Shown: positions 6,486 through 23,664 of the stretch, piece by piece
How the letters are laid out: each line of letters opens with the position of its first letter
How positions within the stretch are numbered: position 1 is the first letter of the stretch
IMG/VR virus record: IMGVR_UViG_3300045996_004610
Span: 1 to 23,664 of that record
Length of the DNA stretch: 23,664 bases
Source of the DNA: a virus
Strand: one strand, 5' to 3'
The notes under the pieces: model-generated
Told to the model about the DNA's origin: nothing
The model's input: only the letters and a program-made list of their open reading frames with translations
Databases searched by the model: none
Translations under genes and position numbers: made by a program

Positions 6486-6630
6486 CGCGTCTTTCTCCTT
6501 TCCCATCCCCGTCCAGCCACCACACCATGTCCTCCAGCGTCATGCGGTCAATCTCCGATGGCTGGAACGCGTATTCACCCGCCAGCCGCCGCGCCAGCCT
6601 GCGCACCTGCTCCGGCGTCAGGCTCAGCAT
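6475..6630 (-). CDS. E': GpE-family tail protein (E' extension), probably made by frameshift
   Basis: A 51-codon ORF in the +1 (equivalently -2) frame relative to gene E. The part beyond the E stop codon, GEYAFQPSEIDRMTLEDM, fits the P2 GpE/E' pattern (aromatic-x-P-S-E-x-x-x-M-x-L-x-E). The ATG at 6630 has no ribosome site within about 20 bases. The conserved part starts exactly at the E stop, so expression as an E-E' fusion is more likely than independent initiation. A -2 slip near 6592 would give a 146-residue fusion, close to the roughly 142-residue P2 E+E' product. Its stop overlaps the start of the tape measure, the expected position for a tape-measure chaperone. Confidence 0.82.
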   Translation of the reverse strand: MLSLTPEQVRRLARRLAGEYAFQPSEIDRMTLEDMVWWLDGDGKGERRDGG

Positions 6631-6913: not shown

Positions 6914-6925
6914 GTCAGTCTTCCA

Positions 6926-6953
6926 AAAAAAAGCCCGGCGCGGGGGCCGGGCA
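6926..6953 (-). terminator. Intrinsic terminator after tube gene FII
   Basis: On the minus strand, stem GCCCGGC/GCCGGGC (7 bp, arms 6934-6940 and 6947-6953) with a six-base loop is followed by eight T residues (6926-6933). It lies between FII and E inside the apparent operon and would cut E and downstream expression unless read through. Confidence 0.88.
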
Positions 6954-6983
6954 TGGGGTTAATCAGTCAGCTTGGGGGAGGGG

Positions 6984-7487: not shown

Positions 7488-7532
7488 ATTTTTTCTCCTA
7501 GTGGTCAGGGTTGTTCAGTGATCAGTCGGCAA

Positions 7533-8702: not shown

Positions 8703-8722
8703 GTGTTGCTCCTTTTGGAAAT

Positions 8723-8746
8723 AAAAAAACCCGCTCGGGGCGGGTT
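8723..8746 (-). terminator. Intrinsic terminator between propeller protein and sheath
   Basis: Minus-strand hairpin AACCCGC/GCGGGTT (arms 8728-8734 and 8740-8746) with a five-base loop, followed by a run of T (8723-8729). It ends only some 20 bases before the sheath start. No promoter was seen between it and the sheath, so sheath expression needs read-through. Confidence 0.88.
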
Positions 8747-8790
8747 GATGGAAACTTCGATTTGATCGCCCTGCATGCAGGCGGAAATGG

Positions 8791-10740
8791 TTATGAAAGA
8801 CCTTTGAGGAAGGCTGTGTCGCCAACGATGGTTGCCAGCGTTCCCATGGTGTTTGATTGAATAATCGGTGTCTGCGCCGATACCGTGACCCGAGTGTCGA
8901 CCAACATTGGCTTGGAAAAAGACGAGCGCAATTTGGCAGTCCCCAGGACTTGCACGCTCACCTGCGCATTTGCGGCGGCAGCTGTTTTTGCAACTCCGAT
9001 GAACGTCATACCCTGGATGGATTCGGCCCAGCCATAGTTAGATGCGGTACCGCTCCGGTCCCAGGTCGTAATCTGGTAGCAAGCTGGCGCAAAGCCTTGC
9101 GGATTCGCCACCGATGCTACGCTTCGCAATAAGCAGTCTCCTACGCCCGATAAGGTAACCGGCGTTCCGAACGCATGGGTGCTCGTATTGATCGGGACCC
9201 ATTTCATGCCGGATGCTGGCGGGATACTTTGCGTCGTCAATATTCTGCCAAAATTCGTATCAATCATGATTGGCCTGCAGTCGAACTTCAACGGTGCGGA
9301 GATGTTCGCCTTATAAAAACTTCCCAATGCTGCACTCGAAGAAATTACCACGCCGTTCGCATCCAACACGATCTCGTTCGCGTCGTTCACATAGAGGAAA
9401 TTGCTGCCGTATGGTTCAAATGTGTACGCAGACAAATCCAGGTAATTGCTAGACAGGGACGTTCCCATCCCCCCGACTGCCGAAACCCCGAGAATACTCG
9501 ATACATTGCTATTGAGCAGTGTCGCAGCCCCGTTGTTTGCAACCCGGTAAATGGACGTTGATCCACCAAGACAAGACCCGACTGCAATCAATGCGGTAGT
9601 GGCTGACTGCAGACATCCCAGCACGAAGCAGTCGTTCCTGGCGAAATACGCATGCTGGTTGTCGTATCCCAAGCCAGCCAGCCCCATGGTGTCATACGGA
9701 CCGGCGGTCGGCGAACCTGTATTGTTATAAATTACATGACGAACAATGCGCCGTATCGATCCGTCATTAGTAACGCCATAGTCAAGATAAGCATAGGCAA
9801 AAAGGATGCTGGTATTTGAAAACGGTATGACCGAAAAATTCCAATGCTTGGTTAAAGGTGCGGCCCCAGCCATCGAAGTCCCACCGTAAGCACCAGTAGA
9901 ATTGGCAACGGCAGTGACTCCCAGTGACTGAACACCTGCCTGCGTAAAAATCGCATAGTTCAAGTGATAGCTACAAAAACTGTTGCTTGGCCCCGCCCCA
10001 CCGTAAATTTGCCCCTGATAAGTGCCCCAGGCGAAAACGATGTTTCCATTTGGAAGCAATGCTATTTTCGGGCATACCAGCATCGCGCTTGGCGCCGAAC
10101 CACCTGAAACAGTTGTCACTAACGTTGGCGCCAACACCGTTGTTCCAGCATTCGAATACACCGCATAACGTAGCTGACTCGTTGCTGATGGACTTTCGTA
10201 CCGGGTCCAGGCAAGAATGAAACTGCCCTCTTGCACCCGCCCAACGACATTGGTGTATGACGCCCCGAAATAAGTATTGCTGCTGGTAGCACTGACGCTC
10301 CCAGGGAGCCACGCATTATCTACTTGAACTGTACCGCCGACCTGGGCGCCGGCAGCGTCGAAAATGGCTAAATACAATGCGCCGCACGTGCTGCCACCAG
10401 CAGCGTTGGGAAGCACGTTGGCATTAGGTAGCACACTTCCCCATACGCAAACGCTGCCACCATTAGACAGCTTCCAGTGCTTCACAAAGCTTGCGCTGCC
10501 AAACGATACGATGGCCGAAGTCTGCGCTGGCCGGAACTGGCTCCAAGTGGCCTGATTCGCCAGTTTGAAATTGCGTACACTATTGACTGTCGCATCCATC
10601 GCAGCGGGATCGTTCAGGAAATAGGCTTTGCCGTCATTGAATCCCAATGCGCAGGGATCGCCTGCCTGGATCGCCTCGGCGGCAGTAAAGTTCACATACT
10701 GCTCAGTAACGGGAGCAGCAACCGATAAATCACGACCCAT
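8791..10740 (-). CDS. Large propeller-like tail accessory / receptor-binding candidate, 649 aa
   Basis: It occupies the place where R-pyocins keep the fibre-assembly gene. The middle (about residues 60-560) contains repeated units: a short strand like LRYAVYSNAGTTVLAPT or LNYAIFTQAGVQSLG, then a strand like LPNGNIVFAWGTY or GSFILAWTRY. This suggests a beta-propeller of several blades. N-terminal IQAGDPCALGFNDGKAYFL and C-terminal FIGVAKTAAAANAQVSVQVL look like two halves of one small phage beta-domain interrupted by the propeller. Base composition is unlike its neighbours: positions 9721-9780 have 23 G+C of 60, against 44 of 60 at 18001-18060. The start ATG has GAGGAG five bases upstream. A binding role is inferred; no enzymatic motif was recognised. 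Confidence 0.82.
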   Translation of the reverse strand: MGRDLSVAAPVTEQYVNFTAAEAIQAGDPCALGFNDGKAYFLNDPAAMDATVNSVRNFKLANQATWSQFRPAQTSAIVSFGSASFVKHWKLSNGGSVCVWGSVLPNANVLPNAAGGSTCGALYLAIFDAAGAQVGGTVQVDNAWLPGSVSATSSNTYFGASYTNVVGRVQEGSFILAWTRYESPSATSQLRYAVYSNAGTTVLAPTLVTTVSGGSAPSAMLVCPKIALLPNGNIVFAWGTYQGQIYGGAGPSNSFCSYHLNYAIFTQAGVQSLGVTAVANSTGAYGGTSMAGAAPLTKHWNFSVIPFSNTSILFAYAYLDYGVTNDGSIRRIVRHVIYNNTGSPTAGPYDTMGLAGLGYDNQHAYFARNDCFVLGCLQSATTALIAVGSCLGGSTSIYRVANNGAATLLNSNVSSILGVSAVGGMGTSLSSNYLDLSAYTFEPYGSNFLYVNDANEIVLDANGVVISSSAALGSFYKANISAPLKFDCRPIMIDTNFGRILTTQSIPPASGMKWVPINTSTHAFGTPVTLSGVGDCLLRSVASVANPQGFAPACYQITTWDRSGTASNYGWAESIQGMTFIGVAKTAAAANAQVSVQVLGTAKLRSSFSKPMLVDTRVTVSAQTPIIQSNTMGTLATIVGDTAFLKGLS

Positions 10741-10742
10741 AG

Positions 10743-11054
10743 TTACTCCTCATAGCCCCACAGATTGATGGAAACACCCGTTTGATGCGCTTGCGCCACC
10801 ACACGGGTACCCGCTGGCAGGACAATGCCGGAGTTGTTCAACACGCCGTTGCCGGGTACGCGCTGCTCATATTCGATATATGTGCCGGCGGTTGGCGTGT
10901 CCGCCGGCGCCAAAGCCAGGCGTACCAGCCGTTCGTCCTGTGTCCGGTTGGTAAAGCGGATCGTCACCGACGCTGTTTTACCGGCCGGCACCGTATATGG
11001 TATTGCCGGTGTCGCCGCCGCCAGATCCGCTGATTTCAAAATTACAATTGCCAT
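10743..11054 (-). CDS. Small beta-rich fibre-associated protein, 103 aa
   Basis: A 103-aa all-beta protein: VPAGKTASVTIRFTNRT, ADTPTAGTYIEYEQRVPG, NSGIVLPAGTRVVAQA and an ending SINLWGYEE. This pattern is familiar from small proteins encoded beside tail-fibre genes in many phages. I infer a structural or receptor-proximal role; it has no assigned function. ATG 11054 has AGGGG six bases upstream. It lies four bases after the fibre stop, and its own stop sits two bases before the next gene, so the three genes are tightly coupled. Confidence 0.8.
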   Translation of the reverse strand: MAIVILKSADLAAATPAIPYTVPAGKTASVTIRFTNRTQDERLVRLALAPADTPTAGTYIEYEQRVPGNGVLNNSGIVLPAGTRVVAQAHQTGVSINLWGYEE

Positions 11055-11057
11055 TGA

Positions 11058-14000
11058 TTACCCCTGCATAAAAAAGAGCTTGGCAGCGCTGAGCGTGCCT
11101 TGAATTGCGGCGTCCACTTCCGCCTTGGTGTAGGCATCAGTAATGCCGTAGCCGCCGAGCGAACTGGGCTTGCCTGACACTGATGTCCAGGGCGGTGCAA
11201 CCGCAACCGATTGCGCAGCGGTGATTCGTCCTTGCTGGTCCACCGTAAATGTCGCAACCGCTGTTTGTGAACCAAAAGATTGGGTTGCTCCCAGGCCTGC
11301 GACGTTCGCAAGTGCCACTGTCGGATTGCCATTGACGCCATCGCCATTCGTCACGCTGATGCCAGCGCCCGGTATCAGCGACCGCACAGCTCGCTGCCCT
11401 GCAGCGGTGCGCGCGATTAAGCCAGTACCCGACAAACCCGCTTCCGCCGTCAGCTCCGCCGACTTCGGCTGCGCATCGGTAATGCCGTAATCGTTCAGCA
11501 AGGTCGGCTTGCCTATGATCGAAGTCCATGACGGCGTCACCGCAACAGACGACAACGCGGTAACACGCCCATGCGCATCGATGGTCACTGTCGGTACAGT
11601 CGTATTGCTGCCGACCGGCCCCGTGGCAGAGCCAATCGTGGCCAGGGCGATAGTCGGATTGCCCGCCACGCCATCGCCATTGGTCACCGTAATGCCACTG
11701 CCCTGCGCCAGCGTGCGCACAGCACGCGCACCCGCGCCGGTCCTGGCGATCATGCCGTTGGCATTCAAGCCCGATTCAGCCGTCAGCTCGGCCGACTTAG
11801 GCTGCGCGTCCGTGATCCCGTAGTCATTGAGCAGGGTCGGCTTGCCCGTGATCGAAGTCCAGGACGGCGGACTTACCGCGGCGCTGGACAGCGCCGTCAC
11901 GCGCCCGGTCGCATCGATCGTCACGACCGGCACCGTCGTGCCATTGCCGACCGGACCCGCGGCGGTAACGATGTTTTGCAAGCCGACGGTATTACCCGAC
12001 TTTTGCAGCCCGGTGCCGGCCGTCACCTGCCCCAGCCCGTTGAACTGCACGAACGTCAGCGCCGTCGAACCCAGCGCAATGGCGCCATTGGTGGCCAGCA
12101 CCCAGCCGGAGTTGTCGTTGACGGCGCCTTGCTCGACAAACACATACATGCCCGGCGTCACCTTGGCGCTGTTGTCGGCATCGCCGGCCCTGCTCCACGT
12201 GGTGCCTGTGTTGGCAATGTAAATGCCGTTCTGCACGGCGGTCGCCTGGTCTTTCACCAGCACGCGGTCGCCAGTCGCCACCGCCACACCGTCCACGGTT
12301 TTGGGACCGGTCAGCGCGCCCAGGTCGGCCGTGGTGGCCAGCCGCACGGATGCCTTCATGTCCAGGCCCGACACCAGGTTATCGACTTCCGTCCTGGTGT
12401 AGACATCGCTGAGGCCGAAGGTGTCACGGGTGCTTGGCTTGTTCTGCAGCGTGGTCCAATTGGCTACCGGAGCCACCTCCACCACGGACTTCACACGCCC
12501 CTGTGCATCGACCTCGAAGGTCGGAATCAATGCTCCCGAACCCCAGGTGCGCGCCGCCACGCCGGTATCGGACAGCGACAGCGTATTGCCGGTCTTCTGC
12601 AAACCAGTGCCCGCCGTCACTTGCCCCAAGCCGTTGAACTGCGTGAACGCCAACGCCGTCGAATTCAACGCAATCGGCCCATTGGTCGCCAGCACCCAGC
12701 CGGAGTTGTCGTTGACCGTCCCTTCTTCGACAAACACATACAGGCCCGGCGTCACTTCGGCATTGGTGTTGGCGTCCTCGGTACGCGCCCATGCGCCGGA
12801 AGCGGCGGCATAAATACCGTTCTGCGGCGCCGCCGTCTGGTCCTTCACCAGCACCCGGTCACCCGCCGCCAGCCCGACGCCATCGACGGTTTGCAGGCCG
12901 GACAGCGCGATGTTGCCCGTGGTGGCCACCCGCACGGACGCTTTCAAGTCCAGCCCCGACACCATGCTGTCCACCTCCGCCTTGGTATAGGCGTTGGTGA
13001 TGTTGTGCTCCGCCAGCGTGGTCGGAATCGACTTCAGGTTGGCGAACGTGTGCTGGTGGCTGTCGTCGAGCACATTGACCGGCAAGGTCACGTTGGCGCT
13101 GCCGTCGAAATCGACAAAGCCGGAGGCGTCGCCGGACAGCGCGATGGTGCGCGACGCCTGCAGGCGCGTGGCGGTATCGACGTTGCCGGACAACTGGCCG
13201 CTGGTGGAAATGGTCACCGCGTTGCCCGCGTCGTCAAACGCCAGCGCCACGTTGGCGCCCGCCTTGATGTTGAGGCGTTCGTTGGTGGCCACCGTCATTT
13301 TCTGCACGGTGCCGTCGCCGATCGCCAGCGTGTGCGTGTGGTTGGCCGGCGCAGCGTCGCGGTTGGTGATGCTATTCCAGTCCGGCGTGATGGTCACCGG
13401 CGTCACTTCGGTCAGTTGCCCCTGCCCGTTCACCTTGAAGCTCACCGCCTGCGTGGCCGAGCCATAGGTGCCGGCGGCAACCGCCGTATTGGCCAGGGCG
13501 ATCACATTGCCGCTCTTTTGCAGCCCGGTACCGGCCGTCACCTGGCCCAGGCCATTGAATTGCACGAAGCTCAGCGCCGTCGAGCCAACCGTAATGGCGC
13601 CGTTGGTCGCCAGCACCCAGCCGGAATTGTCGTTGACGGCGCCCTCTTCGACGAACACATACATGCCCGGTGTCACTTTGGCGCCGTTATTGGCATCGCC
13701 GGCACGGCTCCAGGCGGCACCGGTGTCGGCAATATAAATACCGTTCTGCGATGCGACCGCCTGGTCTTTCACCAGCACCCGGTCGCCGTTCGCCACCGCC
13801 ACGCCATCGACGGTCTTGGCGCCGGTCAGCGCGCCCAGGTCGGCGGTGGTGGCCAGCCGCACGGACGCCTTCATGTCCAGCCCCGTCACCAGGTTGTCGA
13901 TTTCCGTCTTGGTGTAGGCATCCTGGATGCCATAGCCGCCCAGCGTACTTGGCTTGTCGGTCAGGTTGCCGAAAGCATGCTTATGGCTATCGTTCGCCAC

Positions 14001-14360
14001 CGTCACGGGAATGGTGACGCTGGCGCTGCCGTCAAACGCCACCGAGCCGCTGGCCGCGCCCGACAGCGACACGGTGCGCGCGGTCTTCAGCTTGTCGGCG
14101 GTGGCCGCGTTGCCCGTCACGCTGGCCGGCAACGCGGCATTCGCATCGAGCTTGAGCACCTTGCCCGCCTGCGCGGTGGCGACCGTGTTGGCAATCACGC
14201 CATCGACCAGCTGTTTTGCGGCCGTCGCCACCGCGGTCGCCTGGAACACGTCGCCATCGATGGCCGTGACCGCATCCCGCACGCGGGCCACGTCAAAGCC
14301 CAGGGCATTGTCCGCGTGCGGCAGCGGGTAAGCCTGGTGGGAAGTTTTTTGATCGATCAT
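11058..14360 (-). CDS. H: Tail fibre protein H, modular, 1100 aa
   Basis: Main tail fibre. The N-terminal region (ATAVATAAKQLVDGVIANTV ... GNAATADKLKTARTVSLSG) is a typical fibre shaft attachment segment. Three related modules follow, starting near residues 160, 470 and 670. Each carries (D/L)MKASVRLATT-type, GDRVLVKDQ-type and VNDNSGWVLATNG motifs. Between about residues 800 and 1025 two near-copies share SITGKPTLLNDYGITDAQPK. The end repeats the phage-fibre motif GKPSSLGGYGITDAYTKAEV and stops at KLFFMQG without an obvious chaperone domain. The start ATG 14360 has only a weak GGA upstream. No separate fibre chaperone gene was found next to it. Confidence 0.9.
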   Translation of the reverse strand: MIDQKTSHQAYPLPHADNALGFDVARVRDAVTAIDGDVFQATAVATAAKQLVDGVIANTVATAQAGKVLKLDANAALPASVTGNAATADKLKTARTVSLSGAASGSVAFDGSASVTIPVTVANDSHKHAFGNLTDKPSTLGGYGIQDAYTKTEIDNLVTGLDMKASVRLATTADLGALTGAKTVDGVAVANGDRVLVKDQAVASQNGIYIADTGAAWSRAGDANNGAKVTPGMYVFVEEGAVNDNSGWVLATNGAITVGSTALSFVQFNGLGQVTAGTGLQKSGNVIALANTAVAAGTYGSATQAVSFKVNGQGQLTEVTPVTITPDWNSITNRDAAPANHTHTLAIGDGTVQKMTVATNERLNIKAGANVALAFDDAGNAVTISTSGQLSGNVDTATRLQASRTIALSGDASGFVDFDGSANVTLPVNVLDDSHQHTFANLKSIPTTLAEHNITNAYTKAEVDSMVSGLDLKASVRVATTGNIALSGLQTVDGVGLAAGDRVLVKDQTAAPQNGIYAAASGAWARTEDANTNAEVTPGLYVFVEEGTVNDNSGWVLATNGPIALNSTALAFTQFNGLGQVTAGTGLQKTGNTLSLSDTGVAARTWGSGALIPTFEVDAQGRVKSVVEVAPVANWTTLQNKPSTRDTFGLSDVYTRTEVDNLVSGLDMKASVRLATTADLGALTGPKTVDGVAVATGDRVLVKDQATAVQNGIYIANTGTTWSRAGDADNSAKVTPGMYVFVEQGAVNDNSGWVLATNGAIALGSTALTFVQFNGLGQVTAGTGLQKSGNTVGLQNIVTAAGPVGNGTTVPVVTIDATGRVTALSSAAVSPPSWTSITGKPTLLNDYGITDAQPKSAELTAESGLNANGMIARTGAGARAVRTLAQGSGITVTNGDGVAGNPTIALATIGSATGPVGSNTTVPTVTIDAHGRVTALSSVAVTPSWTSIIGKPTLLNDYGITDAQPKSAELTAEAGLSGTGLIARTAAGQRAVRSLIPGAGISVTNGDGVNGNPTVALANVAGLGATQSFGSQTAVATFTVDQQGRITAAQSVAVAPPWTSVSGKPSSLGGYGITDAYTKAEVDAAIQGTLSAAKLFFMQG
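11290..11965. repeat. Two tandem ~335-bp repeats inside the fibre gene
   Basis: Two consecutive units, roughly 11290-11625 and 11630-11965, encode near-identical fibre segments. For example, gtcggcttgcc flanked by gatcgaagtcca recurs near 11505 and 11840. Boundaries are approximate, read by eye. Confidence 0.7.
12001..13905. repeat. Three ~385-bp repeats inside the fibre gene
   Basis: Three copies lie at about 12001-12394, 12596-12985 and 13516-13905, separated by different spacer segments. Each contains the same stretch around agcacccagccgga followed by ttgtcgttgac (near 12100, 12690 and 13610). They encode the VNDNSGWVLATNG modules and could recombine to shorten or lengthen the fibre. Confidence 0.78.
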
Positions 14361-14374
14361 GTGTCAGTCCATGG

Positions 14375-15583
14375 TTACAGTACAGTCACGCGCAGGTTGC
14401 GGACGCGCGGGCGCGCCGTCGGGGAGCCGGCCAGCACCAGCTTGATGCGCAGGCGCGCCTCCATCACGTCGTTGCTGGCAAACGAGAATTCGTACAGCTT
14501 GTCGTCCAGCGGTTTCGGCGTGCCCGTCAACGGCATTTCGACCCAGTTGTCGCCCGCGTCCAGCCCCTTGTAATACGCCTTGACGGTGGCGCCGGAAGGG
14601 ATCACGGCGTCGAACACCACGCGCACGTCGGCGCCCAGCGCATCGGCTTCGATCGCGCGGGTCACGTAGTCGGCCGAGGTGGCCAGGCTGCCCGCCGCGA
14701 CAAAGGTGCCCGGATGCAGCACGGCCGAATGGGTGGCGGTGGCCGATACCGCCGCGCGCACTTTCACGGCGCCCGTCACCGGCGCCGGCAGCGACACCAC
14801 CTGACCATTGCCGACACGGACCACGCGGCCATCGGGGAATTCCAGCTGGTAGTCGCCGGTGGCGCCCTGCATCGGCGCTTCGATCAGGCCTTGCAGGCGG
14901 AATTCCGTCACGTTCGACACGGAAATCGCGCCCAGGTCCACCAGGCGGCTGTTTTCCGTGTAGCGCTGGCCGACGATGCGAAACGCCAGGTCGCGGTCCT
15001 GGTGCGGCGTCCACGTCGAGGCATTCGACGACGACAGCAGCACGCCCACCTGGTACGGCTGGCTGGTCACCCACTTGGCGCTGGCCGCGTCATACTTGCC
15101 CAGTTCCGCAATGCCCACTGAGGGCGCCGCTTCCTCGCTCAGCACCACGGCCGCGTATTCGACATTGGCCGACAGGTTGACCGGCGACGGGAACTCGAAA
15201 CGGTTCCATGCGCCGGCCGTGATGGCGGCCGCCACCAGCACCGCTTCGGCCAGCACGGTCTGGGTCGGCACGCCGAACGCGGTCTCGCGCAATTGCACGC
15301 GCACCGGCTTGGCGCCCTTGGCGGTGATGAACAAGTCCACGCCCTTGATCTGTTCCGGCTGCAGCAGCGAAAAGGTTTGCGCCAGCGGGTCGTAGCGGTT
15401 GATGGTGACCGTGGTCAGCCAGCGGACCACCTGGTCGGTGACCGTGCCGTCGCCGACGAAGATCGCGCTGCCCCGGTTGCCCTGCGAGCCGCTGGCGACG
15501 AATTCCTTGCGGCCGGCCGGCACATTGGCGGGAATGGTGAATTTGCCGGAGATCCGGCCCTGGTTGTTTGCGACTAGCGCCAT
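14375..15583 (-). CDS. Tail/baseplate protein, 402 aa, likely split partner of the DUF4815 protein
   Basis: Beta-rich protein beginning MALVANNQGRISGKFTIPAN and continuing VPAGRKEF ... SAIFVGDGTVTD, then WLTTVTINRYDPLAQTFSLL. The latter is a typical segment of large phage baseplate or adaptor proteins. It lies directly after the DUF4815 protein and in the same reading frame, separated only by 17 codons that contain three UGA stops. That suggests the two were once, or in relatives are, one polypeptide. Of the adjacent ATG codons at 15586 and 15583, the second is better spaced (five bases) from AGGAG. Function is inferred to be structural, linking baseplate and fibre. Confidence 0.8.
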   Translation of the reverse strand: MALVANNQGRISGKFTIPANVPAGRKEFVASGSQGNRGSAIFVGDGTVTDQVVRWLTTVTINRYDPLAQTFSLLQPEQIKGVDLFITAKGAKPVRVQLRETAFGVPTQTVLAEAVLVAAAITAGAWNRFEFPSPVNLSANVEYAAVVLSEEAAPSVGIAELGKYDAASAKWVTSQPYQVGVLLSSSNASTWTPHQDRDLAFRIVGQRYTENSRLVDLGAISVSNVTEFRLQGLIEAPMQGATGDYQLEFPDGRVVRVGNGQVVSLPAPVTGAVKVRAAVSATATHSAVLHPGTFVAAGSLATSADYVTRAIEADALGADVRVVFDAVIPSGATVKAYYKGLDAGDNWVEMPLTGTPKPLDDKLYEFSFASNDVMEARLRIKLVLAGSPTARPRVRNLRVTVL

Positions 15584-15608
15584 CATTGCTCCTGATATGT
15601 AAAAAAAA

Positions 15609-15644
15609 ATTCAACCCGGAATTCAACCCGGAATTCAAACCGAA
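15609..15644. repeat. 12-bp tandem repeat placing three in-frame UGA codons
   Basis: Units attcaacccgga at 15609-15620 and 15621-15632, and a diverged third (attcaaaccgaa) at 15633-15644, next to nine A residues (15601-15609). On the minus strand each unit contributes one TGA (15637-15635, 15625-15623, 15613-15611), all in the frame shared by the genes on both sides. Confidence 0.9.
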
Positions 15645-17584
15645 ACCGGCGTCACGGCAATACCGTCGAACGTCAGCGCGTTGAGCACCTCGCCCGGCGC
15701 CAGGCCGTCGATCTGGAACGTCACGTCGATCTGGCGCAGGAATTCCGCCGCTTTCGCGCTGCTCGACACCACCTGCCGTTCCGTCTCGCTGGTGGTGCGG
15801 GTCAGTGCGCCGCCGCCCACCGTCATCACTTCCGTCGCCGCGCTGGTCCAGGTGGTGTTGGTGACGGTAAAACGGTCCGCCGGCGGGTCCAGTCTCACGG
15901 TGGCCGGTATCGGTTCATACGCCTGGTACGGGTTGACCTGCATCGCACCGGTCATGGCGCCCTGCTGCAGCACGGTGGCCGGCGTGCCGTTCAACACCAG
16001 CGGCGCGGTGATGTCGGCGGCGGGACGCAGGAACGCCGCGCTGACCGGCAGCACCAGTTCACCGCGCACGATGGCCGCGTTCTGCGCGATGCCGGCATCG
16101 CGCTGGTTATCGTTGAGGAAGGGATCGACGAACATCCCCTTCTTGGCCGCCGCGTTGCGCGCATTGGCGTCCGACGCCAGGCGCTGCTGGGCGATCATGT
16201 CCGTGATGCCGTTCAGGCGCTCGTTGATTTCTTCCAGGTCTTTCATCGGCACCACGCGCAGGCCATCGTTTTGCAGCGTACGTTCCGCATTCCAGCTCTG
16301 GCGCACCATGGCCAGCGGCAGGAACTGGTTCGGTACCGGCGGCGGCACCGGGTCGAAGTCGGTCGAGGTGCCGCGCACCCATTCAAACGTGCCTTCCTGC
16401 GTCAGGCACAGGCGGTCGATGCGGGGCAGCTTGACGTTGTAGGAAGTCTGCACCAGGGTGCCGACCACGGCGCCCGTCACGGTGTAGCCCGCGTCATCGA
16501 CGGCGGTCGGCGCGACCGTGGTGATGTGGCGGAACTTCGCCGTATAGGTCGAGCCGATCGACGGTTCCGCGCCATCCAGGCTCCAGTCGATCTTCTGGCC
16601 GGTCAGCTTGTAGTCCACGCCCTGGACGTAGGTGGTGCCGCCCTGCTTCACTTCGACGATTTCCACGATGGAGCCCACCAGCAGCGGGTCTTGCGAGCCG
16701 AGGAAGGAGCCATGCACGACTTCCATCGTCTTTTCCGCCGTGATGCGCACCTGCGTGATGTTTTGCACCGGCGTGCGGTCGAACGTGATGCGCTGCGCGC
16801 CGGTGGTGGTGGACATCCAGGGTTCCGAATCGATGAAGCGGATTTCCGGCGCCGCGCTGTATGGCAGGCGCCGCGCGGCCGGGATGTCGACGGAAAAACC
16901 GTTGACGCGCGCGGTGCCGGCGTCCGCGCTGTATTGCTGCACGCCGTTCACGTCCGGCAGCATGGTGATGCGCATGCCGTTGACCACGTAGTCGCCGCCG
17001 GTGGAGTCGCGGTCGTAGCGGGCAATCGCCTGCGACAGCGAATCGAGCTGCGGCGGCGTGGACTTCGAGCGCAGCACGCCCAGGTCGGCCGTGTACACCG
17101 GATAGAACTCGCCTACCTGGCCATCGGCCTGGCCGGCCGCCTGCCAGCCCCAGCTCGTCGCCACTTCCAGGCGGCCCGCACCCGGCTCCTGGTAATTGCG
17201 CACTTCGGACGCCGGATCGCGCAGCGCCGGGTCCTGCAGTTCCGTCACCACGCGTTCCTGCAGGTAAATGCCGATGGAGACGGTCTTGTCGACCGGGATC
17301 GTGACCTGGCTGGACGCCACGCCGCGCACGGCGCCGCGCAGGTAGACCGCGCCGGCGCCGCACTTGACGGTGCCGGTGGCCTGGTTCACGTTGACCTGGG
17401 CGTCGCGGATGATGTCGCCATCCTTGAACAGCGCGTCGGCCACGCCCTTCAAGCGTTGCAGCGAGGCGCTCTGGATCTCGTTGAGTTCCGCCGATTGCAG
17501 CACGTAGCCGGCGCGGAACAGGTGTTTTTCATAATTGCGCGCCGGGTCGTGGCGGTCGTAATGGTGCAGCAGGTTTTCAGCCAT
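15635..17584 (-). CDS. DUF4815-type tail/baseplate protein, 649 aa
   Basis: It starts MAENLLHHYDRHDPARNYEK and continues LFRAGYVLQSAELNEIQSAS, the N-terminal signature I associate with DUF4815 phage proteins. Other recognisable parts are the FKDGDIIRDAQVNVN stretch, ISLHADIDGP-free beta-rich middle sections, and LEEINERLNGITDMIAQQRL near residue 445, a short coiled coil. The family is found in phage baseplates and is of unknown biochemical role. The final TFDGIAVTPVSV runs into a UGA. Reading through would join the next gene in frame. ATG 17584 follows an AGGGAAAA stretch as a modest ribosome site. It lies between gpI and fibre H, so it probably connects baseplate wedge and fibre. Confidence 0.85.
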   Translation of the reverse strand: MAENLLHHYDRHDPARNYEKHLFRAGYVLQSAELNEIQSASLQRLKGVADALFKDGDIIRDAQVNVNQATGTVKCGAGAVYLRGAVRGVASSQVTIPVDKTVSIGIYLQERVVTELQDPALRDPASEVRNYQEPGAGRLEVATSWGWQAAGQADGQVGEFYPVYTADLGVLRSKSTPPQLDSLSQAIARYDRDSTGGDYVVNGMRITMLPDVNGVQQYSADAGTARVNGFSVDIPAARRLPYSAAPEIRFIDSEPWMSTTTGAQRITFDRTPVQNITQVRITAEKTMEVVHGSFLGSQDPLLVGSIVEIVEVKQGGTTYVQGVDYKLTGQKIDWSLDGAEPSIGSTYTAKFRHITTVAPTAVDDAGYTVTGAVVGTLVQTSYNVKLPRIDRLCLTQEGTFEWVRGTSTDFDPVPPPVPNQFLPLAMVRQSWNAERTLQNDGLRVVPMKDLEEINERLNGITDMIAQQRLASDANARNAAAKKGMFVDPFLNDNQRDAGIAQNAAIVRGELVLPVSAAFLRPAADITAPLVLNGTPATVLQQGAMTGAMQVNPYQAYEPIPATVRLDPPADRFTVTNTTWTSAATEVMTVGGGALTRTTSETERQVVSSSAKAAEFLRQIDVTFQIDGLAPGEVLNALTFDGIAVTPVSV

Positions 17585-17603
17585 GGTTTTCCCTTACTTT
17601 CCC

Positions 17604-18086
17604 TTAGAAGGTGATGACAAATTCGAACGTCTGGCGCACGGCCGCGTTGCGGGTGAATTTCGGCAGGCGCTCCAGCGCCAGCAACTGGCCGCGCTGCGCC
17701 AGCTCGGCCAGCGTGAAATACTTCTGGCCCGCCGGCAGGCCGGGCTTGACCACGGTGCCGACGAACACGCCCACTTCGCGGATGTCCGATGCGGCGGCGT
17801 CGGCGAAGTCGAAGTTGAAGCGCAGGTACAGGTTGTTGGTGGGTTCGTTGCTGATCGAGAAGCGGCCGGTCGGCACGATCACCTCGCCGTTCGGGTCCGG
17901 CACGCAGAACAGCGATTGCGTCAGTTCGCGGCGGCCGATTTCGCTTTGCAGCGCCGTGGCCAGCACAGGCTCCGGTTCCGGCGCCGCGTCCCACGATGGC
18001 AGGCCGGCGCCCCACGCCAGGTGCAGCGGCATGGCCTTGATCGATGCGGCAACGGCCGCACGGCCGGAGGAAGTCAATATCGCCAT
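17604..18086 (-). CDS. Conserved tail protein, 160 aa
   Basis: The start ATG 18086 is chosen because AAGGAG lies eight bases upstream; the frame is open further but without a signal. The protein (MAILTSSGRAAVAASIKAMP ... LHLAWGAGLPSWD ... REVGVFVGTVVKPGLPAGQK ... FTRNAAVRQTFEFVITF) resembles proteins found beside DUF4815 genes in P2-like phages and tailocins. I cannot name a specific function. Position between gpI and the DUF4815 gene suggests a baseplate or fibre-adaptor part. Confidence 0.82.
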   Translation of the reverse strand: MAILTSSGRAAVAASIKAMPLHLAWGAGLPSWDAAPEPEPVLATALQSEIGRRELTQSLFCVPDPNGEVIVPTGRFSISNEPTNNLYLRFNFDFADAAASDIREVGVFVGTVVKPGLPAGQKYFTLAELAQRGQLLALERLPKFTRNAAVRQTFEFVITF

Positions 18087-18120
18087 AAAAAATTCTCCTT
18101 GTAGTGAATTAAAAAAAGTG

Positions 18121-19386
18121 TCAGCGCTGGCGCACGCCGGCGCCCCATGGCGTGGCGTCCGGCCAGCCGGTGACCGCGTCCTGGTTCCAGGCGCCGCCGC
18201 CCGCATAAGCCCACATCGCAGGGGCCGGGTTGAAGACCGGGTCGAAGCGCGAGTGTTTGCCGCGCACGAATTCCACGCCCACCTTCGGCTGCACGGCCGG
18301 CTGCCCGGTGTCAATCGCGCCGATCGAACGCAGTTCCGTGATGCCGAACGACGCGACGGCGCCGCCGACGTCGGAAAACGACATCGACGCGGCAAACAGC
18401 GTGCGGATTTCGTCGACGGGACGGCGTTCGATGCGGCCGTCATACGCCGACAGGCGGGTGTTGCCGGACAGGGTCATGAAGTCCGGCGGCTGGTGCCAGT
18501 AATCGCGCTGGAACACGGCATTGATGGCGCCGATTTCATCGCTGTCGGACAAGGCGATGTTGGCGCGCCGCACATTGCGCCGCCGTGCAATCGAATCGGG
18601 ATTGGCCAGCGCATGGCGGTTGCTGAGCGTGATCAACTGGCCCGCCTGGATGCGGTGGTTCAGCGCCGGCGGCATGTCATACGGCGACACGGACAGGCGC
18701 GGCTGCTGCTCCGCGTACAGCCGGTCCATGCGGATATCCGAGCGGCCCAGCACCAGTTTGCGGCCCTTGCCGGCATCGATGCCGCAGCCCCGCACATCGC
18801 CGAAGGACAGCTTGACGCCGTCCGACCAGACCCCGGAATCGTCGGACAGCATGCCCGCGTCCATCGCCGCCGCGCCGGACAATGCCATGCGCCGCAAGTC
18901 ATAGCCGTGGTACAAGCGGTACAGCCTGACGTGGGCCGGCGCCGACGCCTCCACCAGCTGGCGCACGTCGGCCAGGCGCGACGGCGCCTGCACGGTTCCC
19001 GGGTCCAGTTGCAGGCGCGCGTCGCCATCCTCGACCACGGCATCGAGGCCGATCCACGACAGCGCGCGCGTCACGGCCGCCGCGCTGCCGCGCTGCCGCA
19101 GCCAGGGCAAGCCTTGCGCCAGCAAAGCCCGCGGGTCGCTGAAGTAGCGTGCGAACGGCGCCAGCCGCCATTCCGCCGCCAGCCATGGCACAAAGGCCGG
19201 AGACGGCTGGTGGCGCGCGCTGCCCGGCAAGTCCGCCAGCGCATCGCAGGCGGCGCGCGACGCCGCGTTGGCCAGCGCGGATTCGAGCGGCGTGCGGTTC
19301 AGCGGCAGCAGCGCGGCGTTATGGAACGCGCTCTGCGCCGGGCTATGCGCCAGGTTAGGCGCCGGGTCATGCGCCGGCGCTACCAT
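18121..19386 (-). CDS. I: Baseplate protein I (gpI) with C-terminal extension
   Basis: The first 190 or so residues match the P2 gpI type: LLPLNRTPLESALANAASRA, LPWLAAEW-like tryptophan motifs, FARYFSDPRALLAQGLPWL followed by RQRGSAAAVTRALSWIGL. P2 gpI is about 176 aa; here another ~230 residues follow, containing several Arg/Asp-rich beta segments and ending DATPWGAGVRQR. ATG 19386 overlaps the gpJ stop by seven bases, with GGAGG six bases upstream, a clear start. GpI with gpJ and gpW forms the baseplate wedge. The extension probably contacts the following fibre-adaptor proteins (inference). Confidence 0.93.
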   Translation of the reverse strand: MVAPAHDPAPNLAHSPAQSAFHNAALLPLNRTPLESALANAASRAACDALADLPGSARHQPSPAFVPWLAAEWRLAPFARYFSDPRALLAQGLPWLRQRGSAAAVTRALSWIGLDAVVEDGDARLQLDPGTVQAPSRLADVRQLVEASAPAHVRLYRLYHGYDLRRMALSGAAAMDAGMLSDDSGVWSDGVKLSFGDVRGCGIDAGKGRKLVLGRSDIRMDRLYAEQQPRLSVSPYDMPPALNHRIQAGQLITLSNRHALANPDSIARRRNVRRANIALSDSDEIGAINAVFQRDYWHQPPDFMTLSGNTRLSAYDGRIERRPVDEIRTLFAASMSFSDVGGAVASFGITELRSIGAIDTGQPAVQPKVGVEFVRGKHSRFDPVFNPAPAMWAYAGGGAWNQDAVTGWPDATPWGAGVRQR

Positions 19387-20267
19387 GCGATGCCTCCGTC
19401 ATGCATGACGACGGCGCCCGGCGCCAGGTATTGGTGCGGCAACAGCGGCGGCGCCGTTTCGCCACGGCTGCTGGACAATGCCACCTCAGCCACGCCCTCC
19501 ACATACAGGCGGCTGGACAGCCACGAATCCGGCAATTCGCGGCCCAGCTTCGCGTTGGCCGCGATCAGTTCCGGCAGCGCCGTGCGCAGCAGCGCCACCA
19601 GGTCGGGCGGCGCGTTGCCGTCGCGCCGCACGGTGGCCGTCACATCGAGCGGCACCGCTTCGGCCAGCACGATGTCGAGCGGGACGCCCAGCGGCCGGGC
19701 GTCGTCCGCCATGAAGGCCTGCCGCACGGCGGCCAGCGCCGCTTCGCCGTCGGCGGCATGGCCGGGCCACACCGCCAGGGTCACGCGGCCGGGCGGCGCC
19801 GGCAGCACCGCCGCGTCGCGCACCAGCGGCGTGGCCGACAGGGCCGTGTGGCGGTATTGCTCGGCGGTGCCGTTGCCGGCCAGCGCGGCCGCCCGCAGCT
19901 GCACGCGCAGCCGCAGCCGCTCGTCGCTTTCCGCGGCGGCGCCTGCCGCGGCGCCGTCCCCCTGCATGCCGTCCTGCCCCGGCATGCGCCGCACGCCGTA
20001 AAACGCCGCCAGGTGATCGAGGTCCGCGCCGCCGGCAAACGCCAGCAGGCTGGCGCGGGCCGCGTCGTTGATGCGGGCGCGCACCTGCAGTTCACGGTAC
20101 GCGGCCAGCTCCAGCAGCTTGACGACCGGATCCGATTCCAGCGCCGCGCTCCAGCCGCCGCCCATGGCGGCGCGGAACGCCGCCAGCATGTCCTGGTATA
20201 TCTGCTCGAAATCGAGCGCCTCCACCGCGTCGGGTGGCGGCAGTTGAGTGAGATCGATAATGCTCAC
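19380..20267 (-). CDS. J: Baseplate assembly protein J (gpJ)
   Basis: P2 gpJ-like wedge protein, 295 aa, the usual length. It opens MSIIDLTQLPPPDAVEALDF. It contains LESDPVVKLLELAAYRELQV followed by RARINDAARASLLAFAGGAD and LDHLAAFYGV, the hallmark helical region of the family. It ends ALSSSRGETAPPLLPHQYLA. The start is a GTG (20267) in the GTGA overlap with the gpW stop, with GGAGGT six bases upstream. Confidence 0.96.
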   Translation of the reverse strand: MSIIDLTQLPPPDAVEALDFEQIYQDMLAAFRAAMGGGWSAALESDPVVKLLELAAYRELQVRARINDAARASLLAFAGGADLDHLAAFYGVRRMPGQDGMQGDGAAAGAAAESDERLRLRVQLRAAALAGNGTAEQYRHTALSATPLVRDAAVLPAPPGRVTLAVWPGHAADGEAALAAVRQAFMADDARPLGVPLDIVLAEAVPLDVTATVRRDGNAPPDLVALLRTALPELIAANAKLGRELPDSWLSSRLYVEGVAEVALSSSRGETAPPLLPHQYLAPGAVVMHDGGIAW

Positions 20268-20596
20268 GTGTTCACCTCCATGATCATGGCCGTGCCCTGG
20301 AACTGGCCGCGCAGCCTGAGCGTGACCTTGCCGTCAATCACCGCTTCCACCGTCACGGCCTGCAGCGCCAGGCGCGGTTCCCAGCGCCCCAGCGCACGCG
20401 CCACTTCGGCCTGCACGGCCGATTTCCAGCCCGGCGTCAGCGGCATATCCACCATGCGCGGCAGCTCCGACCCATACTCGGGCCGTTCGCGCCGGCTGCC
20501 TTGCGGCGTGGTGAGGATGTCGCGCACGCTTTGCAGCAGGTGCGCCACGCCGGCCAGCGGCTGGCCCGTGTGCCTGTCCATGCCGACGTACTCCAT
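20264..20596 (-). CDS. W: Baseplate wedge protein W (gpW, gp25-like)
   Basis: A 110-aa GPW/gp25 wedge protein. MDRHTGQPLAGVAHLLQSVR followed by DILTTPQGSRRERPEYGSEL is diagnostic (the I-L-x-T-P-x-G-x-R-x-x-R-P-x-Y-G-S motif), as is the ending LRLRGQFQGTAMIM. ATG 20596 is preferred, two bases after the upstream stop; TTG 20602 would add two residues. The ribosome site is weak, so coupling to the upstream gene is likely. Gp25-like proteins join sheath to baseplate. Confidence 0.95.
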   Translation of the reverse strand: MEYVGMDRHTGQPLAGVAHLLQSVRDILTTPQGSRRERPEYGSELPRMVDMPLTPGWKSAVQAEVARALGRWEPRLALQAVTVEAVIDGKVTLRLRGQFQGTAMIMEVNT

Positions 20597-20598
20597 GG

Positions 20599-20787
20599 TC
20601 AACCCGCCGCGCGGACCACCGGCACGCGCTCGAATTCAGCGTGCTGGTCCAGGTGGGCAACCAATTCGGGACTGGCCGCCGTGATATGGCCCTGCAGCAC
20701 GCGGTGCACGGCGCCATTCGGCAAGACCAGCGTGCGGGATCGAAAGGCGGTATCGCGGAAGACAACGGGAATGCGGTTCTTGGTCAT
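20599..20787 (-). CDS. Small hypothetical protein between V and W, 62 aa
   Basis: A 62-aa protein, MTKNRIPVVFRDTAFRSRTL and onward to a VVRAAG end, not recognised. Basic N-terminus, more acidic C-terminus (LVAHLDQHAEFERV), no membrane segment. The start is well supported by AAGGAG five bases upstream. The stop lies two bases from the gpW ATG, implying coupling. It sits just downstream of a terminator, so it is expressed with W, J and I. A small baseplate or tail component is possible but not shown. Confidence 0.7.
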   Translation of the reverse strand: MTKNRIPVVFRDTAFRSRTLVLPNGAVHRVLQGHITAASPELVAHLDQHAEFERVPVVRAAG

Positions 20788-20797
20788 GCTGGCTCCT

Positions 20798-20821
20798 TCA
20801 GGTAAAAACTCAGGTAAAAAA
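20798..20821. repeat. 12-bp tandem duplication upstream of the 62-aa gene
   Basis: tcaggtaaaaac (20798-20809) is followed by tcaggtaaaaaa (20810-20821). The second copy supplies part of the T run of the adjoining terminator on the minus strand. Confidence 0.75.
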
Positions 20822-20841
20822 AAGCCCGCACAGCGGCGGGC
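20816..20841 (-). terminator. Intrinsic terminator after gpV
   Basis: Minus-strand stem GCCCGC/GCGGGC (arms 20824-20829 and 20836-20841), six-base loop, then eight T residues (20816-20823). It lies between V and the 62-aa gene, early in the operon. Confidence 0.88.
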
Positions 20842-20881
20842 ATGTTTCAAGGAAATTTGGGGCCAGGCCCCGTCATGTCGA

Positions 20882-21454
20882 TTAGTGCTTGTGGTGATTG
20901 CTGTTGCCGCCGGCATCCATGACGGAACCGGCGGCGTCGATATTGCCCTGCACGCTGACGTTGCCGCTCACGGCCAGCTTGCCGCCGATGGCGACGTTGC
21001 CGGTGAACGTGACATCATCCGCCTGCACTTTCAGTGCGGCGCATTTCAAGGTGACCTCGCCTGCCGCTTCGATGGCCGCGCGCCGCATGCCGGCCGCGCG
21101 CAAGGCGCCCGACTCCCAGTCGTACTCGAGCACGCAGCCGTCCGGCATGCGCCACGCCAGGGCCGTGGCCCGCTCCTCGCCGGCGCGGCCATGCTGCGTC
21201 GTATAAAAGCCGGGCAGCACGAAGCCGCAGCCGGGATCGCCGGACGGCGACAACAGCAGCGCCTGTTCGCCCACGGACGGCGGGCGCCAGTGGCGCACCT
21301 GCCCCGCCCCCAGGCTCAGCCAGGGCAGCATGGCCGACACCCACGATCCGACCCGTACGCGGCAGCGGGCCGCGCCGTGGTCGACCTGCTCGATGACGCC
21401 AGGCTGCAGCAACAGCGCCAGGCGACGGTCCAGTTCCGATATCGCATAGTCCAT
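20882..21454 (-). CDS. V: Baseplate spike protein V (gpV)
   Basis: P2 gpV-like central spike, 190 aa. The N-terminal OB-like part holds DHGAARCRVRVGSWVSAMLP and PPSVGEQALLLSPSGDPGCG followed by FVLPGFYT. The C-terminus has repetitive short beta turns (VTFTGNVAIGGKLAVSGNVS ... VQGNIDAAGSVMDAGG), the beta-helix needle. It ends NSNHHKH, a histidine-rich tip comparable to the metal-binding H-x-H tip of P2 gpV. ATG 21454 is chosen, one base after the upstream stop; ATG 21487 would overlap the upstream gene by 32 bases. The spike punctures the outer membrane of the target. Confidence 0.94.
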   Translation of the reverse strand: MDYAISELDRRLALLLQPGVIEQVDHGAARCRVRVGSWVSAMLPWLSLGAGQVRHWRPPSVGEQALLLSPSGDPGCGFVLPGFYTTQHGRAGEERATALAWRMPDGCVLEYDWESGALRAAGMRRAAIEAAGEVTLKCAALKVQADDVTFTGNVAIGGKLAVSGNVSVQGNIDAAGSVMDAGGNSNHHKH

Positions 21455-21455
21455 G

Positions 21456-21974
21456 TCACGCCCCCGCCCGCCAGTAGTCGCCTTCATGCCCCGGCCCGGT
21501 GTCCGGGTCGAGGCCCAGCATCAGCGCCAGGCCCGTGCTGTCCGGATAAGGCCAGGCCGGATCGCCCAGTTCAATCTCATGCGTCCACTCCAGCAGCCAC
21601 GCCAGGCGGCCGGATGGCTGCACGGCGTCCGCCGCCGCGCCCTGCCATTGCGCCGCGCCGATCGGCAAGCCCCACTGTTCATGGCACAGGGCCAGCGCGA
21701 TGCGGGCGGCCAGGCCCCGCACCTGCAACGCCGCACCGGGCGCCGCCGCATCGGCCACGATGCGGGCCTGGAAATGCGCCCGCAATCCGGTCTCGCCGCT
21801 GCCGGGATCGCGTCCCGGCGCCAGCCGCACCAGGTCGATCAAGATGGCCGGCAGCGCCAGCGCGCCCGCATCGGCCGGATAGCAAAAAACCGATGGCACA
21901 TCCGCCAGCCTGGCGGCCAGGCCGGTGCGTATCGCGTCATGTAACTGTTCGAGGTTCTGTAGTTTGTCTGCCAT
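21456..21974 (-). CDS. Tail protein upstream of gpV (possible Mu gp37-like), 172 aa
   Basis: First structural gene after the leader. MADKLQNLEQLHDAIRTGLA opens the protein. The middle is alpha/beta with LPAILIDLVRLAPGRDPGSG, AHFQARIVADAAAPGAALQV and RGLAARIALALCHEQWG. R-pyocin clusters have a protein of similar size at this point, and Mu-type phages have a gp37 family tail protein of this general build. I use those as guides but cannot confirm the family. A tail terminator or completion role is a reasonable guess. The ribosome site is weak (GGGGA about eleven bases upstream of ATG 21974). Confidence 0.78.
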   Translation of the reverse strand: MADKLQNLEQLHDAIRTGLAARLADVPSVFCYPADAGALALPAILIDLVRLAPGRDPGSGETGLRAHFQARIVADAAAPGAALQVRGLAARIALALCHEQWGLPIGAAQWQGAAADAVQPSGRLAWLLEWTHEIELGDPAWPYPDSTGLALMLGLDPDTGPGHEGDYWRAGA

Positions 21975-21993
21975 GGCGGCGGATTCCCCAAAT

Positions 21994-22026
21994 AAAAAAC
22001 CCCGCGTGGCAAGGCGCCAGGCGGGG
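21994..22026 (-). terminator. Second leader terminator
   Basis: Minus-strand hairpin with outer stem CCCCGC/GCGGGG (arms 22000-22005 and 22021-22026) and an inner GGC/GCC pairing, then six T residues (21994-21999). It lies 20 bases before the first structural gene. Confidence 0.82.
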
Positions 22027-22051
22027 TGTGTCCACAGGTGGGGCAGAAAGC

Positions 22052-22076
22052 AAAAAAGCCCGCTTTAGCGGGCTTT
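22052..22076 (-). terminator. First leader terminator
   Basis: Perfect 10-bp hairpin AAAGCCCGCT/AGCGGGCTTT (arms 22055-22064 and 22067-22076), with T residues continuing to 22052 on the minus strand. It ends the regulator transcript. It also starts only about 20 bases after the predicted late transcription start. Confidence 0.9.
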
Positions 22077-22103
22077 GGTTGCAATTACTGCGATGATGAC
22101 TGA

Positions 22104-22133
22104 ATCATATCTGCGCTGTAACAAGTTCGTCAA
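22104..22133 (-). promoter_or_regulatory. Predicted late promoter for the structural operon
   Basis: On the minus strand, -35 TTGACG (22133-22128), 18-base spacer, -10 TATGAT (22109-22104), predicted start near 22097. Upstream sequence is very A-rich, like an UP element. The leader to the first gene is about 120 bases and holds two terminators. Confidence 0.68.
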
Positions 22134-22150
22134 GCACTTTTTTTCAGTTT

Positions 22151-22176
22151 TTTCTGATATTTCCGACTTTTCTGAT
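22151..22176. repeat. Paired 8-bp direct repeats upstream of the late promoter
   Basis: tttctgat occurs at 22151-22158 and 22169-22176, 18 bases apart, at about -54 to -79 from the predicted late start and just past the regulator stop codon. Possible activator or antiterminator-loading site, or part of an UP element. Confidence 0.5.
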
Positions 22177-22179
22177 TAT

Positions 22180-22839
22180 TTATGCAAAATCACCCACCAC
22201 ACCCTGTTCGCGGAAGTACGGCTCCAGCCGGTCCAGCGCCAGGTCTTCCAGTTCGCGCAGGCGGCTGCGCAGCTTTTCATACGCCCGCTTGTACGTCATA
22301 TGGCTGGCGCCGAAGTTGGCCGCCAGGTCGCGGAAGCTGATTTCCATCTTTTGGTGATTGGCATACAGCTTGCCAATCATGCAGTCGATCGCGAAGGGAT
22401 TGACGGTTGGGAACGATGGCGCCAGCCAGTCCGACAACCCTTTGATGGCCTCGATGCGCTCGGCGGAAAACGCGAAACGGCGGTTGCCGTCCTCATCTTC
22501 CATTTCCATATGACCGAAGCGCGCCTGCAGCGCCCACATTTCCATGCACGGCAGCCTGGTCTTTACCGCATGCACGATCAACGCGCATTGCGCCCGCACT
22601 TCCAGCGGGCTGAGCCCCGCGAAATTCACGCGGCGCGACGGTGCACCGCGCAACTGCTCCAGCCACGCGCGCTGTTCGCTGCCGGTGTTGGGCGCGCTTT
22701 CCAGCATCCGTATCAACATCTTGCGCAGCGGCGCATCCTGCGGCGCCGCCTGCCCGGTAATCATGTATGCAACATGCACGGCCTGCCCGGCGCTGGTAAA
22801 AATCGCATCCTGGTTCGCCTGTTCTATCGCCATGGTCAT
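22180..22839 (-). CDS. HTH regulator of the tailocin, possible Q-like antiterminator
   Basis: A 219-aa cytoplasmic protein. The C-terminus holds a sigma-region-4-like helix-turn-helix, about residues 167-192 (SFRDLAANFGASHMTYKRAY), then a helix ending LRELEDLALDRLEPYF. The centre contains LSPLEVRAQCALIVHAVKTR. This build (helical body, central 'LSP' block, terminal HTH) resembles regulators I associate with phage late-gene control; I cannot confirm a family. ATG 22839 is chosen for AAGGAGG eight bases upstream. It is transcribed divergently from the repressor and sits immediately before the late promoter with leader terminators. It could act like P. aeruginosa PrtN (activator) or like lambda Q (antiterminator). 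The terminators favour the latter. Confidence 0.8.
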   Translation of the reverse strand: MTMAIEQANQDAIFTSAGQAVHVAYMITGQAAPQDAPLRKMLIRMLESAPNTGSEQRAWLEQLRGAPSRRVNFAGLSPLEVRAQCALIVHAVKTRLPCMEMWALQARFGHMEMEDEDGNRRFAFSAERIEAIKGLSDWLAPSFPTVNPFAIDCMIGKLYANHQKMEISFRDLAANFGASHMTYKRAYEKLRSRLRELEDLALDRLEPYFREQGVVGDFA

Positions 22840-22959: not shown

Positions 22960-23664
22960 ATGGATATCTCTAGCCGGCTGACCGAAGCCATGAAAGCAGC
23001 GGGGTTCGAATCGCAGAGCGCGCTTGCGCGCGCCTCCGGCGTGCCGCAACCAACCATCAACCGCATCCTGAACGGGGTGGGCAAGAAAGGCCCGGAAGCG
23101 CATACGCTGGCGGCGCTGGCGGCCGCCTGTAATGTCACGTTCGAATGGCTGCACGAAGGCACGGGCCAACGCGAGCGCAACGGCGCGCCCTCGCCCCAGG
23201 CACAACGCTATTCTCACGTGGTGATCGCACCGGAGGATGACGACCGGTTTTATCGTATTGACAAGGTCAAGCTGCGCCTGTCGGCCGGCATCAGCGGTTT
23301 CGGCGTCGAGCCGGAAACCCATGACGGCAGCACCATCAGCATCCCGCGCGACTGGGCCGACCGCAACGGCTACAACCCGGAGCGGCTGATCGGCGTGAAG
23401 GTGCGCGGCGAAAGCATGGAGCCCTCGCTGTATGAAGACGACCTGGTCATCATCAACACCGCAGATACCAAGCTGGTCGACGGCATCGTCTATGCATTCA
23501 ACTATGAAGGGGAGCCGGTGGTGAAACGGCTGGCGCGCGACGCCGGACAGTGGTGGCTGACGTCCGACAATCCCGACCAGCGCAAGTACCACCGCAAGGT
23601 GTGCCGCGGCGCCGATTGCATCGTGATCGGCCGGGTCGTGCGCAAGGAAAGCGACCGGATCTAA
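22960..23664 (+). CDS. CI/LexA-type repressor (HTH XRE + S24 peptidase)
   Basis: A 234-aa self-cleaving repressor. An XRE-type HTH lies at about residues 18-39 (SQSALARASGVPQPTINRIL). A linker follows, then an S24 domain with GESMEPSLYEDDLVIINT and VVKRL. The catalytic dyad is Ser152 and Lys189, with the 37-residue spacing seen in LexA. A likely RecA-stimulated cleavage site is Ala109-Gly110 (LSAGISGFG). ATG 22960 is chosen over GTG 22945 because the predicted promoter puts the mRNA start on that ATG. It should repress the divergent regulator promoter and be inactivated in the SOS response, as in R-pyocin control. It ends exactly at the window edge with TAA. Confidence 0.95.
   Translation: MDISSRLTEAMKAAGFESQSALARASGVPQPTINRILNGVGKKGPEAHTLAALAAACNVTFEWLHEGTGQRERNGAPSPQAQRYSHVVIAPEDDDRFYRIDKVKLRLSAGISGFGVEPETHDGSTISIPRDWADRNGYNPERLIGVKVRGESMEPSLYEDDLVIINTADTKLVDGIVYAFNYEGEPVVKRLARDAGQWWLTSDNPDQRKYHRKVCRGADCIVIGRVVRKESDRI

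Follow-up and report, generated by a model that had tools for sequence, protein, structure and literature searches.

An AlpA-like regulator beside a terminator-guarded leader suggests antitermination control of a probable R-type tailocin

Introduction

How can RNA polymerase reach tail and lysis genes that stand behind terminators, two of them placed ahead of the first gene and three more inside the operon? This question is raised by IMG/VR record IMGVR_UViG_3300045996_004610, whose positions 1 to 23,664 (23,664 bases) were analyzed in full and are called the window below. The locus is described here from its gene content to its leader, its regulator and the leaders of related loci, and it very probably holds a tailocin switch that works by processive antitermination of the AlpA/Q type.

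Gene Content and Host Site

The minus-strand genes encode a P2-like contractile tail (sheath, tube FII, GpU, GPD, gp25, gpJ, tape measure, fibres, and baseplate) together with a holin-like protein and a lysozyme for lysis (Table 1). The window showed no recognisable gene for a capsid, terminase, portal, or integrase, and its content fits an R-type tailocin. The genes at 1-522, 1060-1806, and 8791-11054 are without an informative match. Two PHROGs labels, “head closure” for the tube gene and “head decoration” for the fibre repeats, gave way to Pfam Phage_tube and gene position. The 1100-aa fibre gene (11058-14360) contains repeated modules, because of which it aligns with the Pseudoduganella rivuli copy in multiple pieces.

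Table 1. Features of the window, ordered by position.
Feature	Coordinates	Strand	Remarks
Target operon	617..21974	-	contractile tail, holin-like and lysozyme genes
Internal terminator T5 (predicted)	6933..6952	-	between tail tube and tail assembly chaperone genes
Internal terminator T4 (predicted)	8728..8746	-	before sheath gene
Internal terminator T3 (predicted)	20824..20841	-	after gpV-like baseplate gene
Terminator T2 (predicted)	21999..22027	-	fold; conservation
Terminator T1 (predicted)	22055..22076	-	+22..+43; 9-bp stem
CATCAT, predicted sigma-dependent pause element (CAnnnT)	22093..22098	-	-1..+5
Late promoter (sigma70-type, predicted)	22104..22133	-	-35 TTGACG 22133-22128; spacer 18; -10 TATGAT 22109-22104
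GTTACA, predicted regulator binding element	22117..22122	-	-25..-20, in spacer; AlpA's GGGACG at same place
AlpA-like regulator (phrog_17923), 219 aa	22180..22839	-	C-terminal HTH; ATG at 22839, stop ends 22180
Two direct repeats, spacing 23	22882-22896, 22905-22919		over regulator promoter, upstream of regulator
XRE/S24 (CI/LexA-type) repressor	22960..23664	+	divergent from regulator; Pfam and PHROGs

In the two relatives whose genomes were checked, P. rivuli and Massilia Root418, the cluster is flanked on the same sides by alcohol-dehydrogenase-like genes (assigned by Pfam) and chemotaxis-receptor genes (assigned by reading), which gives it a fixed host site common to different genera, as would be required of an R-type tailocin. 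Since host genes lie on both sides of the cluster in these two relatives, with no head or integrase gene, it has probably been domesticated as an R-type tailocin, with an S24-type repressor in control. The repressor gene product matches Pfam Peptidase_S24 (E 1.2e-19) and HTH_3 (E 6.7e-10), as well as phrog_4, a repressor family (E 1e-49). The direct repeats that cover the regulator promoter are putative operators for this repressor, and their 23-nt spacing is also found in P. rivuli and Massilia Root418, making three genera with the window.

Promoter, Predicted Pause Element, and Terminators

The original prediction had placed a TTGACG-18-TATGAT promoter on the minus strand, and this promoter was located, with its predicted start at the A of position 22097. 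It matches the consensus at 10 of 12 positions, which is close to consensus, and it is the sole site on the operon strand of the window with at least 9 of 12 matches. Promoter-like sites number 4 against 3.4 expected, so the promoter match alone is not significant; the promoter is, in addition, conserved in relatives. The sequence holds the two leader elements that an AlpA-type system calls for: an element within the target promoter's spacer, at -25..-20, to which binding is predicted, and a -10-like element at -1..+5, at which pausing is predicted.

A strict rule for terminators (at least 6 bp, at least 4 G-C pairs, and at least 6 T in 8) returned exactly five sites in the window, all on the operon strand and 0 on the other, while dinucleotide shuffles gave a mean of 0.10 per strand and a maximum of 2 in 40. 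Under a permissive rule, there were 21 terminator-like sites against 17.8 expected, which is no enrichment. A chance origin was considered, as the promoter and permissive terminator counts are at background, but the strict rule and conservation decide against it. T1 and T2 lie downstream of the late promoter and precede the first gene, in agreement with the two tandem terminators first proposed, and an intrinsic terminator in this place belongs to an AlpA-type system. Both fold in 12 of 12 close leaders (window included), and T2 carries base changes on both sides of its stem among them. The claim that three further co-directional terminators occur within the structural operon also held, since T3, T4, and T5 satisfy the strict rule and recur, with bases changed, in the corresponding intergenic gaps of P. 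rivuli and Massilia Root418. Nor did a convincing promoter appear behind the internal sites, as had been stated: after any of the five terminators there is none with at least 9 of 12 matches, the best being one 8/12 site near 20824.

Internal terminators stand ahead of the tube-chaperone and sheath genes, whose ratios matter, and all five might be regarded as attenuators that set tail-protein ratios, with the late promoter constitutive or otherwise controlled and the regulator acting elsewhere. T1 and T2 are, however, ahead of every gene, so that no ratio could be set there. Together with the joint occurrence of leader motif and regulator (6 of 6 genomes) and the joint change of helix and spacer, both described below, this makes attenuation very improbable.

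The Regulator and Its Relation to AlpA

The gene just upstream encodes a 219-aa protein with a terminal HTH, as had been noted; the HTH is C-terminal. The protein belongs to phrog_17923, a family whose function is listed as unknown, and nothing informative was returned for it by Pfam and NCBIfam. Two family profiles, made from 19 and 38 relatives, were compared with the PDB and matched AlpA at E 1.3e-8 and 1.2e-10, respectively; the next-best matches were at 0.46 and 0.24, and nothing else fell below 0.2. The profile-AlpA alignment consists of three collinear pieces, which are the N-terminal MFQSTEQALAVAY segment, the segment of AlpA E53, and the HTH. The window sequence alone finds AlpA at E 0.044. 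AlpA compared with PHROGs gave weak matches (phrog_17923 at E 0.064), and for this reason the link between regulator and AlpA is based on family profiles and fold.

The fold agrees with the profiles. The AlphaFold model of the regulator (pLDDT 79.7, pTM 0.71, with low confidence in the N-terminal part at residues 65-71) has AlpA as Foldseek hits 1 and 2 in the PDB, at E 2.5e-5 and 4.7e-5, followed by a next hit at 0.49. In a PDB fold comparison, AlpA scored Z 15.6 (over 156 residues) and 14.6, and the next entry 5.2. Homology in sequence and fold thus extends along most of the protein, as an AlpA-type assignment requires, and two further requirements concern single residues: the position aligned to the DNA-contacting R128 of AlpA is Arg in nearly all members, and the one aligned to E53, which contacts RNA polymerase, is acidic (E or D) in 19 of 19. 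By family profile and modelled fold, the regulator is a distant homologue of Pseudomonas AlpA in both sequence and structure. It is longer (219 aa, against 176 aa in AlpA), and its model has a beta-hairpin where some relatives (L030, L031, and L089-L106) carry about 100 extra in-frame residues in mid-protein. A search of BFVD with the model matched two uncharacterised phage proteins, A0A8S5QVS0 and A0A6J7WUV8 (E 1.1e-5 and 3e-4), which could likewise be AlpA-like.

The regulator has a DNA-binding HTH, and the promoter contains a motif that resembles a binding site; both would also suit a conventional activator like PrtN that recruits polymerase, the terminators then serving to insulate the operon from upstream read-through. 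Pseudomonas tailocins do use an activator. Here, however, the promoter is near consensus, and because the terminators come after it, activation by itself would leave the genes out of reach; nor does an activator need the conserved CAnnnT at -1..+5. The regulator is, moreover, homologous to AlpA, which is an antiterminator (PMC7969949), and we consider simple activation improbable. Processive antitermination is the reading carried forward.

Leaders of Relatives

Relatives were drawn from viral contigs, host-family genomes, and one isolated phage, and were reduced to 56 representatives at 90% identity. In these, a promoter followed 15-45 nt on by a terminator was sought within -40..+160 of the regulator stop. 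The arrangement stands beside the regulator in 34 of the 56; the rest of these loci (916 kb) has it 2 times, and shuffled leaders give 0.05 of 56. Several other representatives have the same layout with weaker or longer hairpins, or have it moved by an insert, while several Burkholderia members (e.g., L007-L009, L065, and L070) have no such leader adjoining the regulator.

Individual loci vary in their layout. In L016 (L016:1-1560), a gene of about 0.8 kb separates the regulator from the leader, and the regulator is altered in its final residues; the promoter and both terminators are intact despite the inserted gene. In L087 (L087:5427-7727), a leader-like promoter and terminator do not adjoin the regulator but lie about 2.3 kb further downstream. 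In L025, L027, L032, L079, and others, the TGA stop of the regulator is inside the -35 TTGACG, so that promoter and gene end overlap.

Among 45 divergent leaders, A+1 is present in 44, T+5 in 43, G-25 in 41, and C-21 in 38; these leaders were picked by a score of -10 and CAnnnT, so that those columns are partly selected, whereas the spacer motif is outside the score. The -10, the CAnnnT at -1..+5, and the spacer motif at -25..-20 occupy the positions they have in AlpA's leader, and most often the first terminator begins at about +22. Close relatives also have their first 25 transcribed bases highly conserved, as might be expected if the leader were a small RNA ending at T1 and acting in trans. 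Divergent members nevertheless keep mainly the -10, CAnnnT, CG, and the hairpin, all of which are explained by a pause and a terminator, and a small RNA appears the least credible of the readings weighed here.

A scan of 393 genomes for the close relatives' leader pattern gave single matches in 6, each of which also carries the regulator. With a looser pattern, 8 regulator-bearing genomes had one match apiece. The regulator has one target per genome. In phage relatives, the terminase and portal genes come after the regulator, which is the place of lambda Q, and the switch appears to recur in many Burkholderiales phages.

Joint Change of Helix and Spacer

When the spacer motif was compared with the recognition residues, 0 of 2000 permutations reached the association observed for positions 138, 139, and 142 and for the 139-142 block, and 120 of 2000 did so for position 140, although the association is confounded by descent. 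Close pairs show the change directly. The L025 and L077 regulators are 88.7% identical, differing mostly in their C-terminal halves, and the first has helix RMTFA with spacer GGGACA, the second helix HTTFI with spacer GTTCCA. Between L019 and L044 (84.7%), residue 138 is H in one and R in the other, and the motifs are GTTACA and GTGACA. Regulators with KSTxH, as in AlpA, carry GGGACA. With such close regulator-promoter pairs, which differ in both helix and spacer, the specificity can be tested directly.

Proposed Switch

The promoter, the terminators and their conservation, the AlpA homology, the element positions, and the joint change of helix and spacer were all obtained by computation, and the homology, the AlpA-like positions of the leader elements, and the conserved terminators together support the proposal that a Q-like antiterminator is encoded beside its target, with AlpA as the precedent. 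From AlpA and the type of repressor we infer terminator activity in the cell, pausing, loading, and DNA-damage control, and we add ring formation to the model. The CI/LexA-type repressor would hold the regulator gene off. The late promoter would fire even so, and polymerase would halt at T1 or T2, with stray transcription halted at the three further terminators in the operon. Loss of the repressor, probably triggered by DNA damage as for other S24 repressors, would allow the AlpA-like regulator to be made. It would load onto RNA polymerase at the paused complex, as AlpA and Q do, and form at the RNA exit channel a narrow ring that blocks hairpin formation. Polymerase could then pass all five terminators, and the tail and lysis proteins would be produced.

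In such a switch, a tailocin would be silenced by terminators instead of by an idle promoter. More broadly, we think it likely that phrog_17923 comprises AlpA-homologous late-gene antiterminators across Burkholderiales phages and tailocins, with a readable helix-spacer code, AlpA then being a domesticated phage late regulator. On this reading, a phage family of listed unknown function acquires a likely role, and AlpA gains dozens of relatives together with their promoters.

Comparison with Known Systems

The R-type pyocins of P. aeruginosa are controlled by PrtR and PrtN, and PrtN is described as an activator. They resemble the window in that an S24-type repressor governs genes for a contractile tail and for lysis, and differ from it in their second regulator, which is AlpA-like in the window. 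Another contractile tailocin, the enterocoliticin of Yersinia, has a CI-type repressor and two genes that are named, by annotation, antitermination protein Q (PMC13030884). Among the passages found in the literature on tailocin antitermination, that annotation was the sole relevant one.

The Q systems of phages lambda, 21, and 82 share with the window the order of regulator, late promoter, terminator, and late genes, and lambda pR' likewise combines a binding element in the spacer with a pause element. Among the Pfam, NCBIfam, and PHROGs matches of the regulator, there is none to a Q family (lambda, 21, 82), so that by sequence it is not assigned to those families; the PDB fold search listed AlpA and not lambda Q or 21Q, and BFVD returned a weak match to a protein annotated as Q (E 0.06). 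GafZ of the Caulobacter gene transfer agent is similar by description, with antitermination of a phage-like particle cluster and a binding element between -10 and -35, but GafY and a long untranslated region are also part of that system (PMC11150451).

The closest likeness is to AlpA, PalpB, and PPA0807 of P. aeruginosa, where AlpA acts by antitermination (PMC7969949). The homologous regulator, the spacer element at -25..-20, and the pause element at -1..+5 are common to both systems (PMC7969949, PMC9371919), as are a LexA/CI-type repressor upstream and a terminator soon after the start: that of PPA0807 begins 26 bp after the start site, with another further on (PMC7969949), and T1 begins at +22. 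The pause element of PalpB is CACGAT, and the binding element of AlpA is GGGACG (PMC9371919), in contrast to the GTTACA of the window. The window also differs in its target, an operon of tail and lysis genes that contains three more terminators. No other antiterminator was reported to share sequence homology with AlpA (PMC7969949), and the structural study of AlpA anticipated the discovery of more Q-like proteins (PMC9371919). What is new here is that phrog_17923 is placed, on profile and model evidence, in the AlpA class, which supplies AlpA with sequence homologues.
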